Below are positions 2,397 through 22,190 of a stretch of 64,000 nt of DNA, one piece after another. Numbering within the stretch: position 1 is the first letter of the stretch; every line of letters starts with the position of its first letter. This DNA is from Owenia fusiformis (taxonomy: Eukaryota; Annelida; Polychaeta; Sabellida; Oweniidae): the NCBI GenBank assembly GCA_903813345.2, contig CAIIXF020000010.1:10470349-10534348 (forward strand), in the 5' to 3' direction. A model generated the notes under the pieces. The model was not told the origin of the DNA. It ran no database searches and worked only from the letters and a program-made list of their open reading frames with translations. The position numbers were made by a program, and so were the translations under genes.

Positions 2397-2612
2397 GTAA
2401 GTTATGATGTTTATCCATGCATGGGGTTTTAACAGAGAAAGCCTATTAGACGGGTAGGAAGGAGGGGTTCCCATGCACCCGAAAGATGTATTTTTTTAAT
2501 GTACATTTTTGTAATCCTAAAGGTCCATACTAAAGATTTTTGCATGTTCCCAGAATGAAATATTGTCCCATGGTATCTATTGGCGGCCATCTTGTCGGCC
2601 ATCTTGGATTTT

Positions 2613-3715
2613 TGAAAGAGTTGATATTAATTATCTCAAAGTACAATAACTTCCAGAGTTTTGAGATTTGAAAGCTGTAAGTGGTACCAAAATGAAGCTA
2701 TTATAGTATCCTATCTTATCAGATGCAATAATTATGCAAATTGTCTCATTTGCATAAAATGTGACATCATCAATCATAATTCTTGCCTCTTTACAACGGT
2801 ATTGCATTATACCTTTCTGCCTGAGTGATCAGTCTTAGTCATTCATGAATAAATGAATTTGAATATATAGGTATATTAATTTTGAACATATTTGAAAAAA
2901 AAATTCGAAACTTTTGGAAAAACATTGTCAGACACACGATAATGTTACTGAAAAGAGGCGTGGCACTTCTTGTGAAAGAATTGATGTTAATTATCTTAAA
3001 GTATAATAACTTCCACAGTTTTGAGAGTTGAAAGCTGTAAGTGGTACCAAAATGAAGCTATTATAGTATCCTATCTTATAAGATGTAATAATTATGCAAA
3101 TAGTCTCATTTGCATAAAATGTGACATCATTAATCGTAATTTTTGCCTCTTTACAACGGTATCGCACAATACCTTGCTGCCTGAGTGACCAGTCTTAGTC
3201 ATCCATGAACATAAATGAATTTGAATATATAGGTACATTAATTTTGAACATATTTGCAATTGAAAGTTTTGGAAATACATTGTCAGACACTAAGTTGTAA
3301 CACTTCACATGATTTTGTTACTGAAAAGGGGAGTGGCACTTCTTGAGAAAGAGTTGATGTTAATCATTTCAAAGTACAATAACTTCCACAGTTTTGATAA
3401 TTGAAATCTGTAAGTGGAACAAACATGGAGCTATTATAATATACTTATAAAAATGCAATAATTATGCAAATTTTCCCATTTGCATAATATGTGACAACCT
3501 CTATTATTTTTGGCATTTTTTAATGGTAACAACCAATATCTCTCCCTCTGGGTAACATTCGTGGTTATTCATGAGCATTTATGATTTTGAATATATAGGT
3601 ACATTAATTTTGAACATATTTGCAATTGAAATTTTGGAAAAACTTAAGTGTTAACTGTTGACACTTCACATGATTTTGTAACTGAAAGGGGGGGGGGGCA
3701 CTTTTGTTCAAAATT
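2613..3715. repeat. Left TIR: three ~360-bp tandem units
   Basis: Units begin with GAAAGAGTTGAT-like sequence at 2,613, 2,973 and 3,347, giving periods of 360 and 374 bp. Each unit holds ATGCAAAT, six bases, then ATTTGCAT (2,734-2,755; 3,094-3,115; 3,464-3,485), and the first two then have a TGACATCAT motif. A G-tract closes the last unit. The third unit is the most diverged, so the array probably grew before the element decayed. Confidence 0.7.
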
Positions 3716-3879
3716 CTAACTTCTAAACACTAATATCAAATTCAAGGGCTGAAGCTCCTCTAGCAGAGTAATGTAGAAAGAGCCCAATGTTGCTCATTGG
3801 TGAAATGTTGGCCAAATTTTGGATCTTGTATGCACTGCTTACAAGTACATGAAGTGTTCATTATGATAGTGTAATTCCA

Positions 3880-6060
3880 ATATGACAGCACAATACAAGT
3901 CAGGCTGTTTTATTGTCACATATGCAAAAGTCGATCTGATGAGACATGTTAAAAGTGGTAGAGGTTAATAATGCCCAGATCGAATAAACACAAGATAGAT
4001 ATTGAAGGTAGGCCCAGATCAAAGTATGGGCATCCTTAGCCTCAATCATGACGCCATCTGTATTGTCCATTAGTGGGAGCTGTAACCCAAATAATGAGAA
4101 TATGACTTAATGTAAGTGTCATTCAGTTGCCATGCACTTAGGGCAGTTGGCGGTTTCTTCCTTGCCCCAAAGTCTGAGGTTTGATGGAGTTGAGACCAGG
4201 TCAGGGAAAGCTCTTAATAGGAAATTGAGCCTCCCTTGGTCCATGGACCAAAGGTCATTCCATTTCAAGAAGTGCTGAAGTGAGGGTTCCCAGGTAATGT
4301 CAGGTAATGTAATGTCAGGTAATTCCCAGGTAATGTAAATCTGGAACGGCCACTGAAATCAGGGAGTAAGTCATAACACCCCGATATATGACTTGAGTCA
4401 ATGACTCTAAGCCACTTGTCCAGGTCCCTTGACACTTCAGCTGTTTTGTTCAAACCACACATAGTTCTTCTCTAGACATTTGTTTCTTTATCTTGCCCTG
4501 TTGGTATTTGCTTGCCATTTATTTTGAACTGCATTGGAGAAAGCTTGCCATCAACCAAAACCATGCTTCTTGACCTGGTTTGTTTTTAACTTCATGCAAG
4601 TCCAGTTTGCCATTCTTTCCATACCTAATAGAACCCATCTTGTACCCACTACTGAACTGGTCATAACTGTGATGTCATCCATGAAAGCTCTGTATGATAA
4701 GTGTTTTGCACCTTCATTTGCTTTTGAAACCTTACACTGCATCATCCCTGCCTTGAGCAGTAAGTTCATTGATGTTACGAAGAGAACTACTGATACAGTG
4801 CAGTCTGCCACTATGCCTTTCTCTGAACTCTGCTAATTAGTGGTATTATTGCCAAATGTATTGTGCAACTTCGAGGAGTTTGTGTGTCCCATTGTCAGAT
4901 TGACTACATCTGTTGGTTTTGGGAAGTGAAAGTTAACTTGTACCTCTAGTAACAGTTGGTGAGGGACACTAGGTAGACCTTAAGTCCAGCCAAACTACTT
5001 ATTCTCTTTCTTGGCTTCCTTCACAAGTTGGCTTATTGCTGCTATATGCACCCTTGATGTCTTGGGATACCACTTTTCTGAATGCTTGGCAGGCCAGTAG
5101 GAAATAACTGCGAGACTTGACCACAATGGCCCAGAAGATCTTTCCCTCAGCATCCGATAATGATGTCTACTTGAACTGGTTCAGTCCCTCAAATTTTAGC
5201 TCCTTTGCAATGAAGCATCTTTCCGCCAAAGCCTAAGTCCTTGCTAGATTTTTCTTGTTCTGGATGCTTGTTAGCAATCACAATAGATGTATTAACAGCT
5301 TATGGCTGTTCTTGTACACCATGTATGCCTTCCTGATGATTGTTCTTACCTCATCAAGCTTGAAAACTGACTGGTCAAACGGTTTTGATGATAAATCTGG
5401 TGAGATGTCAATTGGGAAATTACTCAATGGCATATTTCGACCTGGGTCACTGTGTGCTGCCAAAGTATTTGCTTCTGCTTGATCCTGCGTATATGCCATA
5501 TGGGCACTCCTTGGTTCCCTAACAAGTTTGATGTGAGCCTATAGAGATTTTCAAAGAATGTCTTCCTGGTCCTACGCTTCTCTTTAGATTTTCTCTAAGA
5601 TGAAGTAATCTCTTAAGAAGCATCTGTTGGAGCTCTCTGATCTTTTTCACTTGGCAGTGTTGAAGCCGTCCACGAACACTGTGGGCTTCATCTCTCCTTC
5701 CGAAGAGAAGCTTTTGTCTTCTACTTGGCCCAACACAATGATGTTTCACAGATGTTTCCTCCACTCACTGTCCTCGCATCTGGGATGGAAATCGTTCTAA
5801 CTTGGACAAGAGGTAGCATAGTGAAGAGGCTGGGCTCTGCATCCCACTTCTATTGGGTGCATAACTGCATACCACCCTCTTGTCTTAGCCTCATCAAATA
5901 GGTCTTGGATTTTTAAGCTGATCAGATATTTTAATCGGTCAACTCTTCTGAAGGTACCATGAGCTCATTGAAGATGTTGGACTGCTGTGTTTTGACATCA
6001 GCACTGAGTTTCTGTAAGAAGTCAGCTGAGAGTCCAGTCGGATGTCTTGGATAAAACATT
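3880..6060 (-). pseudogene. Decayed non-LTR-like reverse transcriptase
   Basis: Read on the minus strand, short open pieces follow the order of a known invertebrate/fish RT family. About 5,880 has a G-W..H-P-I-E-V-G-C-R motif typical of its N-terminal region. About 5,500-5,280 has a linker with S-D-P-G-R. At 4,685-4,674 is the catalytic box F-M-D-D, flanked by Y-R-A and I-T-V-M-T-S-S-V. About 4,400 has L-D-K-W-L-R-V-I-D. About 4,190-4,150 has S-N-L-R-L-W-G-K followed by a C-P-K-C pair like the zinc knuckle near the C terminus. The gene is clearly broken, with many breaks. The family assignment comes from memory of these motifs, as no search was possible. The gene fills most of the space between the two TIRs. 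Confidence 0.65.
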
Positions 6061-6889
6061 GAACTGAGGAAGCTTAATACATATTGAGTTAATTATATAG
6101 CTTTAACAACTAAATACTGTGGGTACTCATTTCAGTCCATTGCCTATCCTAAAATGATGTGGGGATATGTGGTCATTCGTATCTGTATAGTACTTAGTCC
6201 AAAAGCGATACAGATTATATATCTTTGGCTGAAATTTAAATGTCTGCCAAACAGACCAACAAGAATTTTTGAACAATGTAGGAATAAGGAACATCACTTT
6301 CTAAAAGTCAAAAGCTATATTTTACACCTGAGGGATTCACTCTATATAAACCTTGACAAGGGGTTCCTCTTTTTTTAACATTTGGTATGGCAATGGATCC
6401 AAATTTTAGGATCTGGAATAAAAATGCCCCCATTTAATTATGACTTTTGAGGTATGACAATTGTCGGATTTTTCTACTTTGTAGTACAAGAATGGTCATG
6501 GAGAATATGTTACCTCTCACTTGTGGTATTGTGGTAATTTGAGATTGTTTTCATTTTCATAAAAGTTCTGCTTCTTCCAGGGGCTTTAGACATTTTGCAT
6601 TCCAATGGTCTTATATTTTTGGGATATTTGGTATGGCATTAGTCCTATATTTGGACATTTTGTATAGCATAGGTCTTATATTTGGATATTTGGTATGACT
6701 TTTGGACGTTATTTTGGTTGGTATTTGAACACATTGAAATTTGACAGATTGGTATGGGAACATAATGATTATGGGAACATAATGATATCTTAGGGCTCAG
6801 CCTAGGACAACTACAGAATTGTGTATTCAGTGAACCCCTGGGTATTTTACAGATGATACATCGACTATATAATAACATTACGGATTTTC

Positions 6890-7784
6890 ACGCCCCTTTT
6901 CAGAACAATAATCATTTGAAAGGCCATACCTTGATTTCTGACAATGTTTTTCTAAAACTTTCAATGCAAATATGTTCAAGCTTATAATTGCAAATATGTT
7001 CAAAATGAATGTATACATTTAATATCTTTTATATTCATGAGAGACCAAGACTGGTCACCCAGAGGAAAATGCAATATGTATTACCGTTGAAAAGGGGCAA
7101 AAATAATGATTGATGATGTCATATTTCATGCAAATACGGTGATTTACATAATTATTGTATCTTATAATGTGGGATATTGTGATACCTTCAGTTTGGTACC
7201 ACTTACAGCTTTCAACTCTCGAAACTGTGGAAGTTATTGTACTTTGAAATGATTAACATCAATTCTTTCACAAGAAGTGCCACGCCCCTTTTCAGTAACA
7301 TAATCATGTGTCTGACAATGTTTTTCCAAAACTTTCGATTGTAAATATGTTCAAAATTAATGTACCTATATATTTAAAATCATTAATGTTCATGAATGAT
7401 TAAGACTGATCACTCAGGCAGAAAGGTATAATGCAATACCGTTGTAAAGAGGCAGGAATTGTGATTGATGATGTCACATTTTATGCAAATGAGACAATTT
7501 GCATAATTATTGCATCTGATAATATAGGATACTATAATAGCTTCATTTTGGTACCACTTACAGCTTTCAATTCTTAAAACTGTGGAAGTTATTATACTTT
7601 GAGATGATTAACATCAACTCTTTCAAAAATTCAAGATGGCCGACAAGATGGCCGCCAATGGATACCATGGGACAATATTTCATTCTGGGAACATGCAAAA
7701 ATCTTTAGTATGGACCTTTAGGATTACAAAAATGTACATTAAAAAAATACATCTTTCGGGTGCATGGGGACCATACCTTCCTAC
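6890..7784. repeat. Right TIR of the 5.3-kb element
   Basis: Inverted counterpart of the left end. Two ~360-bp units (about 6,890-7,280 and 7,290-7,625) are followed by the terminal 160 bp containing the paired AAGATGGCCGAC/AAGATGGCCGCC motifs. The outer unit keeps the ATGCAAAT..ATTTGCAT pair at 7,483-7,504. It has one unit fewer than the left arm, as expected of tandem-repeat TIRs that gain or lose units. Confidence 0.7.
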
Positions 7785-7816
7785 TAGACTATATGATCCA
7801 TGTTATCTTCATTAGT

Positions 7817-8645: not shown

Positions 8646-9334
8646 GTCACAGGTTTATTCCCATTTCGCCCCTTCCCATTTCGCTCCTTCCCAATTGGCC
8701 CCTTTCCCATTTTGCCCCTTTGCCATTTCACCCCTTTTCCGTGTTGCCCCCTTCCCATATTGCCCCTTTCCCTTATCGCCCCTTCCCATTACGCCCCTTC
8801 CCATGTCGCCCCTTCTCCATTTCACCCCTTCCCATTTTGCCCCTTCCCATTTCGCCCCTCATTTATTCCCATTTCGCCCCTTCCCAATTGGCCCCTTCCC
8901 ATTTCGCCCCTTCCCAATTGGTCCCTTTCCCATTTTGCCCCTTTGTCATTTTGAACCTTTGCCTGATTTAAGGTCATTGGGGCTGTTGTGAACCTCTGTG
9001 ACCCATGATTAAGTTAACTAAGGTCAAGGTCATTCCAAGGTCAAAGGTCAGTATCTAGGTATTTTACTTTTTAATAAATGAAGGGCGAAATGGGAAGGGG
9101 CGAAATGGGAATGGGCCAATTGGGAAGGGGCAAAATGGGAAGGGGCAAAGGGGGAATGAGGGGTGAAATGGGAAGGGGGCATAATGGGACGGGGACGAAA
9201 TGGAAGAGGGGCGAAATTGGAAAGGGGCAAAATGGGTAGGGGCCAAATGGGAAGGGGCCAAATGGGAATAAATGAGGGGCGAAATGGGAAGGGGCAAAGT
9301 GAGAAGGGGCCAAATGGGAAGACACCCTGGTCAC
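8641..9334. mobile_element. TU/FB-like fold-back of 15-bp repeats
   Basis: The left arm (about 8,655-8,958) is an array of the 15-mer TTCCCATTTCGCCCC and variants (TTCCCAATTGGCCCC, TTCCCATTTTGCCCC). The right arm (about 9,080-9,320) is the same array in reverse complement. The whole is bracketed by the perfect 10-bp direct repeat CCCTGGTCAC at 8,641-8,650 and 9,325-9,334, so the inserted DNA is 8,651-9,324. Inverted arms made of short tandem repeats plus an 8-10-bp duplication are the hallmark of Drosophila FB and sea urchin TU elements; the latter are known for 15-bp repeats. The 120-codon open frame over the left arm is an artefact of the repeat. Confidence 0.75.
9021..9050 (+). promoter_or_regulatory. 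AGGTCA half-site cluster (DR0 and DR1)
   Basis: The loop of the fold-back element carries four AGGTCA copies in 30 bp: 9,021-9,026 and 9,027-9,032 directly abutting (DR0), then 9,038-9,043 and 9,045-9,050 separated by one A (DR1). DR1 is the classic arrangement for RXR heterodimers and HNF4. Function is unproven; the motif match is exact. Confidence 0.45.
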
Positions 9335-13200: not shown

Positions 13201-13364
13201 ACGTCATATTTATTTTTAATCTTTAGAATAATGATAATAAACAAGGCCTAACAGAAAAACCTCAAACATTTTAATTTTCATTTATACTCTACATATCTGT
13301 AGACATGTTCGGATGGTATACTTGTCAGTGTCTCTAGACCATGAGACTGAAACTGAAATACCAA

Positions 13365-14290
13365 TCATGCTCATTGTTAATCTTGCTCAATGTTGATTTT
13401 GCTCATTGTTAATCTTTCTCTTTGATAATCTTGCTCATTGTTGATCTTGCTCTTTGATTATCTTGCTCATTGTTAATTTTGCTCTTTGTTAATCTTGCTC
13501 ATTCTTAATTTTGCTGTTTGTTAATCTTGCTCATTCTTAATTTTGCTCTTTGTTAATCTTGCTCATTCTTAAATTTGCTCTTTGTTAATCTTGCTCATTG
13601 TTAATCGTGCTCATTGTTAATCGTGATCTTTGTTAACCGTGATCTTTGTTAATCGTGCCCATTATTAATCGTGCTCATTGTTAATTGTGATCTTTGTTAA
13701 TCGTGCTTATTGTTAACCGTGATCTTTGTTTATCATGCTCATTATTAATCATGCTCATTATTAATCATGCTCATAGTTAATCGTGATCTTTGTTAATCGT
13801 GCTCATTGTTAATCATGCTCATTGTTAATTTTGCTCTTTGTTAATCTTGCTCATTGTTAATTGTGCTCATTGTTAATCGTGATCTTTGTTAATCGTGCTT
13901 ATTGTTAACTGTGATCTTTGTTAATCATGCTCATTATTAATCGTGCTCATTGTTAATTGTGATCTTTGTTAATCGTGCTTATTGTTAACCGTGATCTTTG
14001 TTTATCATGCTCATTATTAATCGTGCTCATTGTTAATTGTGATCTTTGTTAATCGTGATCTTTGTTAATTGTGATCTTTGATAATCGTGCTTATTATTAA
14101 TCGTGATCTTTGTTAATTTTGCTCATTGTTAATCGTGCTCATTGTTAATTGTGCTCATTGTTAATCATGCTCATTGTTAATTGTGATCTTTGTTAATCAT
14201 GCTCATTGTTAATTGTGATCTTTGATAATCATGCTCATTGTTAATCGTGCTCATTGTTATTCTCTTTGTTTATCCATTACTCATTGTTAC
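13365..14290. repeat. 16-bp minisatellite array (~930 bp)
   Basis: About 58 tandem copies of a 16-bp unit of the form ATTGTTAATCTTGCTC. Variants alternate between GCTCATTGTTAATC and GATCTTTGTTAATC, with T/G at the CTTGC/CGTGC step. Higher-order blocks of two to six units recur (for example the GTGCTTATTGTTAACCGTGATC block appears more than once), showing growth by block duplication. No coding potential. Confidence 0.9.
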
Positions 14291-20929: not shown

Positions 20930-22190
20930 AATTTCAAAATGCCATAACTTTTGAACAGGAAGTCTGATCGAAATTTGATTTGCAGATTCGGATTCCTGAG
21001 AAAATTCTATCTATAATTCATAACTCATACGTTAAATTTGGAGAACTCTTTATTTTGACCTACTTTTCGGACACACCATAACTTCCGAACCGGAAGTCGG
21101 ATTGACATTTGGTTTGCAGATTCGGATTCCTGACAGAATTCTACCCTTAATTCATAACTCATATGTTCAATTTGGAAAACTTTTTATTTTGACCTACTTT
21201 TCGGACACCATATCTCAAAAGTGGGCCAAAATACTTTCTGACGGCAAAAGGCTAACACTATTAGCCCACTCTTGGCTACATATATACACAATTTCGAAGA
21301 ATATAATTAAAGTGTAGTGTCAGAATCGCAAAAATAAGGATAAACTATGAATTTGACCTAGATTTTGACTTAGGAATTTTGGTGTCCAAATTTTGAAGTT
21401 AAGTAGCCTTCAAGGTCCCCTTCTTTCATAGGCTTTCATTATTTTAAGCTGTACTTAGTCTAAATCTCGTATTTTACACTTCAAAAAAATCTTTTTTCCC
21501 ATTGCCATAACATGGGGCACCAAATTTAGCGATTTTTGAGCTTTCAAAATGTCATAACTTCCAAACCGGAAGTCGGATCGAAATTTGGTTTGCAGATTCG
21601 GATTCCTGAGGAAATTCTATACTTAATTCATAACTCAAACGTTAAATTTGGAGAATTTCTTATTTTGACCTACTTTTCGGACACCATATCTCAAAAGTGG
21701 GGCAAAATACTTTCTGACGGCAAAGGGCTATCACTATTAGCACACTCTTGGCTACATGTATACAAAATTTAGAAGAATATAATTAATCTGTAGGGTCAGA
21801 ATCGCAAAAATAAGGAAAAACTTTGAATTTGACCTAGATTTTGACCTAGGCATTTTGGTGTCCAAATTTTGAAGCTAGATGGCTTTTTAGGTCCCATTCT
21901 TTTAAAGGCTTTCATTACATTTAGCAGAACTAGGTCTATATTTCGTATTTTTCACTTCAAAAAAATATTTTTTCCCATTGACTTAACATGGGCACCAAAT
22001 TCAGCGATTTTTGAGCTTTCAAAACGCCATAACTTTCGAACCGGAAGTCGGATCGAAATTTAGTTTGCAGATTCGGATTCCTGAGAAAATTCTACCTTTA
22101 GTTCATTGGTCATAGGTTGAATTTGGAGAACTTTTTGTTTTGACCTACTTTCTGGACGCTATATTTCAAAATCGGTAAGAGAAATCAAAA
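20930..22190. repeat. Three to four tandem copies of a ~470-bp unit
   Basis: The core CATAACTTCCGAACCGGAAGT followed by CGGATCGAAATTTGGTTTGC recurs at about 20,942, 21,080, 21,549 and 22,027. The last intervals are about 470 bp; the first is 139 bp because that copy lacks most of its right half. Each full unit also has TATCTCAAAAGTGGG and GACCTACTTTTCGGACAC. The units differ by a few percent. They lie wholly inside the 10.76-kb element. Confidence 0.8.

Follow-up and report, generated by a model that had tools for sequence, protein, structure and literature searches.

A 5.3-kb unit in the genome of Owenia fusiformis combines the long inverted ends of a DNA transposon with a decayed reverse transcriptase (RT) in its interior, which raises the question of how the two came to share one unit. 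A sequence-only reading of the window (the whole 64,000-nt stretch analyzed here, located on the 37.5-Mb contig C10) had offered two answers: an RT element that landed exactly between the arms, or a composite family, and hence a new element architecture, in which an RT travels between terminal inverted repeats (TIRs). We analyzed the window together with the genome (498 Mb, 525 contigs).

Inverted arms, ends and target duplication

The unit with long inverted ends held up on analysis, with positions 2447–2849 and 7389–7791 pairing in inverted orientation at 95% over 403 nt and additional blocks present. Its true limits lie a few bases outside the 2453–7784 initially proposed; the ends common to copies and a 3-bp duplication place them at 2447–7791 (5,345 nt; Table 1). 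The inverted arms are about 0.9 kb long. In the arm alignment over 2454–3335, 788 of 871 positions agree (score 1204), compared with scores of at most 34 for 21 other pieces of the window used as controls. The tandem units of ~360 nt in the arms, of which the left arm has three and the right arm two, share 78–94% identity and are absent from the output of TRF run over the whole element. About 2.0 kb of the ~3.2-kb interior is occupied by the RT. The copies read have the same ends, save for single-base left-tip variants in two of them (L036 and L044). The constant-ended TIRs of 2447–7791 are those of a TIR (cut-and-paste) DNA transposon, and its long TIRs made of internal tandem repeats are of the foldback type.

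The window holds further repeats. An inverted repeat at 106–652, with 115-nt arms at 83% and inner 70-nt arms at 76%, is perhaps another, smaller palindromic element. Simple tandem arrays with periods of 15–31 bp and 32/80 bp lie at 8658–8943, 9083–9321 and 13363–14259.

Exactly 3 bp are repeated in the flanks of 19 of the 20 two-ended copies, the exception being L033, compared with 24 of 380 between-copy flank controls, and a 4-bp repeat occurs in none of the 20. This target-site duplication of fixed length is that of a TIR DNA transposon and fits an element moved by a transposase. Two paralogous empty sites were found for copy L038. The one in the window has a single TTA in place of the two in the filled copy; the other, in L031, is identical at 563 of 602 positions and likewise has one TTA. 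Both lack five bases of the joined L038 query, namely the inserted TA, which comes from the element ends, and the second TTA. A TA target duplication was rejected, because the empty site and flank matching assign the TA to the ends and not to the target. The surrounding tandem array (21076–22171, period 476 bp) has related units in L031 and L038, and the L038 transposon copy is inserted in a related array. PIF/Harbinger elements also make 3-bp duplications and prefer TWA-like targets; that preference does not fit this family, because its duplicated targets vary (TAA, ACA, CCA, TTG, CGT, CAT and others).

Table 1 Features of the window (positions counted from its first letter)
Feature	Position	Strand	Details and basis
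Target-site duplication, left copy TAT	2444..2446	.	3-bp repeat in 19/20 copies; L038 empty sites
Whole transposon	2447..7791	+	5,345 nt; left tip TAGACGGGTAGGAAGG, right tip TAGTCTAGTAGGAAGG (inward reading); ends common to copies
Left arm	2447..3700	+	~160-nt tip, then tandem units 2610-2969, 2970-3346, 3347-3700
Interior, left	3701..4044	.	RT match: none reported
RT fragment, residues ~872-952 of L045	4045..4292	-	tblastn
RT fragment, residues ~195-736	4260..5764	-	Several frame breaks; FMDD in 4554-4832; tblastn, Pfam
C-terminal RT fragment, residues ~997-1115	5774..6066	-	Upstream of RT domain; EVGCR in 5827-5964; tblastn
Interior, right	6067..6888	.	RT match: none reported; contains 31-bp-period tandem repeat at 6585-6696; TRF, tblastn, and a search with the best 40 of 813 candidates scored
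Right arm	6889..7791	-	Two ~360-nt units plus tip
Target-site duplication, right copy TAT	7792..7794	.	Flank matching
Paralogous empty site of copy L038	21211..21807	-	In 476-bp-period repeat array; 592/602 identities

The family across the genome

Searching the genome with the 168-nt tip gave 98–100% identity in all places scored (best 40 of 129 candidates), and the RT DNA gave at least 48 matches, many of them at tip loci (40 of 93 candidates scored). Tip pattern searches returned 54 left and 72 right matches, against 2 and 6, respectively, for the reversed controls, and another tip search listed 100 of 132 tips. All 54 left tips (one with 3 mismatches) and 63 of the 72 right tips entered the pairing; nine right tips with 3 mismatches were omitted, and three tips found solely by the general pattern remained outside it. 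RT matches used for the linkage count had at least 76% identity, mostly with one match per copy.

All 48 inward-facing left–right tip pairs, defined within 12 kb, enclose the RT. They span 4.1–10.3 kb, with 32 falling between 5.1 and 5.8 kb. RT lies inside the pair or within 10 kb for 102 of 117 tips; among the 21 unpaired tips, RT lies within 10 kb of six, and 15, such as those at C10:29578884, C10:36841954, C124:421776 and C2:18089276, have no listed RT (one of these 15 was read). From the side of the RT, 56 of the 56 RT-family positions entered are inside a pair or at most 10 kb from a tip. The co-occurrence count proposed with the sequence-only reading therefore found TIR copies mostly with RT and not RT-free, bearing out its suggestion that the RT and the TIRs belong together as a family, and chance co-location of the two was ruled out by the 48 paired tips. 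The interior was present at 19 of 20 loci fetched around tips, the remaining one (L036) being a single arm. In L036 we found five frames of at least 90 aa, the longest of 180 aa and repetitive-looking, and no repeats common to it and the other compared loci were reported. The family numbers some 50 copies, if not more, and splits into at least two subfamilies, A and B. Because all 48 pairs enclose the RT, 19 of 20 copies show the 3-bp duplication and L038 has empty sites, the TIR transposon and its internal RT fragment moved as one unit.

Within the outer 150 nt, subfamilies A and B diverge by 1.2% (left end) and 2.0% (right end), compared with 3–10% in the remaining bins, calculated from 15 of 20 copies (13 A, 2 B; five longer than 6.1 kb omitted) with bin coordinates carrying a 2-base shift. 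Low tip divergence would follow if movement were confined to copies with good ends, and by this pattern the tips seem to be the part of the element that does the work. No transposase was found with PF13359, the one family searched (best 150 of 269 candidates scored); the nearest match listed among these lies, by eye, ~60 kb from an unpaired tip. Nor does the window copy contain a frame above chance length: its longest inter-arm frame is 102 aa, compared with a mean of 99.6 and a maximum of 152 for shuffled sequences.

The enclosed reverse transcriptase fragment

We searched for relatives of the RT with its FMDD piece. The best-scoring place outside the family, L045 (67% over that piece; best 150 of 210 candidates), carries an intact RT ORF of 1,147 aa, which presumably also has a C-terminal nuclease-like motif. 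This ORF matches Pfam RVT_1 (E 8e-20), and its residues 344–784 match R2 proteins of known structure (PDB 9nl3, 9dou, 8gh6; best E 1e-23), giving it an R2-like RT domain. Used as a tblastn query, L045 matched the window interior with a best E of 9e-52, confirming an RT with FMDD and EVGCR as previously described; it lies on the minus strand, within 4045–6066 compared with the 3880–6060 first given. Pfam RVT_1 matched the FMDD piece alone weakly (E 0.027, under the curated cut-off). Along the minus strand, the L045 residues follow in the order ~997–1115, ~195–736 and ~872–952, with no match reported beyond; the C-terminal piece thus precedes the RT domain in a permuted order. No RT 3′ end or recognisable retroelement 3′ end was found in the window element by tblastn from L045.

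Long inverted repeats were absent from the 6 kb fetched for L045, which cover ~430 nt beyond the stop codon and leave room for a distant 3′ arm; two pairs of 25–26 nt at 72–77% are the only inverted repeats there. Upstream of the L045 ORF, 300 nt from the 3′ part are repeated head to tail at 100% identity, 3,742 nt apart (1445–1744 and 5187–5486, longer by eye). We collected 44 non-family RT positions, L045 included, by hand, leaving out more decayed, low-identity matches. Their own C-terminus was listed for at least 25 (best 150 of 194 C-terminal candidates), and 10 of these 25 also show C-terminal sequence upstream, at 3,742–3,820 nt; in one of the 10 (C9:36648747) this sequence is where another RT copy ends. 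A head-to-tail duplicate of the 3′ part immediately upstream is thus frequent in the intact R2-like RT family. Penelope elements have a partial tandem layout that resembles these upstream 3′ copies. For the fragment inside the transposon, we infer a partly dimeric R2-like source because its RT order is permuted; most likely it derives from a partial dimer of an R2-like retroelement.

We then analyzed the decay of the RT in 20 copies with interior (17 of subfamily A and 3 of B). Among the copies aligned at each position, a stop is shared at residue 223 by 18 of 18, at 538 by 18/19, at 481 by 17/18, at 417 by 16/17 and at 380 by 16/19. Frame changes also tend to coincide in residue position among the 20 copies, and residues 1–195, 716–871 and 953–996 were obtained from fewer than 10 of them. 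Both the stops at 223 and 538 and the permuted order occur in the two subfamilies (the window copy and L035 for A, L038 and L042 for B), and therefore the RT was broken before the subfamilies split. Under an alignment filter that favours conserved codons, dN/dS was 0.86 for the 136 A–A pairs, 0.77 for the 51 A–B pairs and 0.63 for the 3 B–B pairs, compared with 0.20 between the copies and intact L045. Values below 1 between copies, including the 0.63 of the three B–B pairs, may reflect weak early constraint on the RT. The longest open frames between the arms measured 93–185 aa across 15 copies, and two group B copies, with 158 and 185 aa, exceed the shuffle maximum of 152. Frames of up to 230 aa appeared for some family copies in the FMDD-piece search (best 150 of 210 candidates); for L042, that search gave 230 aa with an internal stop, compared with 158 aa in the inter-arm analysis. 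Taken together, we infer that the RT is a functionless passenger.

Origin of the unit and comparison with known systems

It is highly probable, in our judgement, that a foldback-like, non-autonomous DNA transposon acquired a piece of a retroelement on a single occasion and was then amplified by a transposase acting in trans. The element would be of the cut-and-paste type, its ends moved by a putative transposase supplied from elsewhere, and each transposition would yield the 3-bp duplication observed at the copies. As the permuted order suggests, the founder would have acquired a partly dimeric R2-like non-LTR piece before the examined copies diverged, either through insertion between the arms or through copying. 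The acquired piece would then have lost its ends and its frame, leaving the breaks that the copies have in common, and the whole unit has since amplified to the present copy number and subfamilies. The copying route, in which the transposon copied part of the partly dimeric retroelement by aberrant repair and was not hit by it, is possible, and we put it forward tentatively. A fragment without a recognisable retroelement 3′ end, flanked on its two sides by 0.3–0.8 kb without a reported RT match, is consistent with such copying; however, nothing distinguishes it from insertion followed by deletion, and partial dimers of this RT family also show 5′ truncation inside the upstream unit.

A coincidence at a single locus, with an RT element landing between the arms of the window copy only, has next to no probability. 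It draws support from nothing other than the one window, and it is refuted by the RT in 48 of 48 tip pairs and by the interior and tip together at 19 of 20 fetched loci. We also consider it very unlikely that an ancestor carried a functional R2-like RT gene between its TIRs and that this gene took part in its spread, with the examined copies as dead descendants. The tight RT–TIR linkage, the greater open-frame length of some copies (chiefly of subfamily B) and dN/dS below 1 between copies would agree with this, but the permuted order and the stops at 223 and 538 place the breakage of the RT before the subfamily split, the 3-bp duplication fits a transposase, and long inverted repeats are missing from the L045 sequence fetched, which is limited on the 3′ side. 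Strict RT–TIR linkage is moreover no proof of an RT-driven element, because single-founder descent explains it. With an RT that, in the copies examined, is permuted, truncated and frame-broken in common ways, and with a 3-bp duplication, the proposal of the RT as a working part of a new architecture is not supported. The same low probability attaches to assigning the family to chimeras of RT and DNA transposon, in which a once-expressed R2-like RT between transposase-type TIRs would have helped the spread and the copies would now be dead and rearranged.

The preferred reading, a DNA transposon amplified with its acquired fragment, can be compared with Tetris, a foldback transposon of Drosophila virilis that is apparently non-autonomous, with a middle without apparent coding capacity, and whose long TIRs contain a variable number of internal tandem repeats (PMC4079207). 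The window element resembles it in all these respects, its tandem repeats measuring ~360 bp compared with ~220 bp in Tetris. Unlike Tetris, with target duplications of 8–10 bp (PMC4079207), the window family duplicates 3 bp; it also carries an RT passenger, and none is mentioned for Tetris in the part of that account drawn on here. Unlike R2-like non-LTR retrotransposons (PDB 9nl3, 9dou, 8gh6), which have an intact RT ORF and no TIRs, the element at 2447–7791 has TIRs and only a broken, permuted RT fragment.

Judged on titles and the beginnings of abstracts, no such TIR–RT family was found described among the papers retrieved. With its many copies and an empty site, the family is a clean instance of retrotransposon sequence dispersed by a DNA transposon. 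Pack-MULEs and Helitrons likewise multiply foreign coding fragments as passengers between transposon ends. MULEs make 8–10 bp duplications and Helitrons none, and the 3 bp of the window family fits neither; unlike in Pack-MULEs and Helitrons, its passenger is a piece of a retrotransposon. The multiplication of a retroelement fragment within a DNA transposon is of a known kind, that of the capturing transposons.
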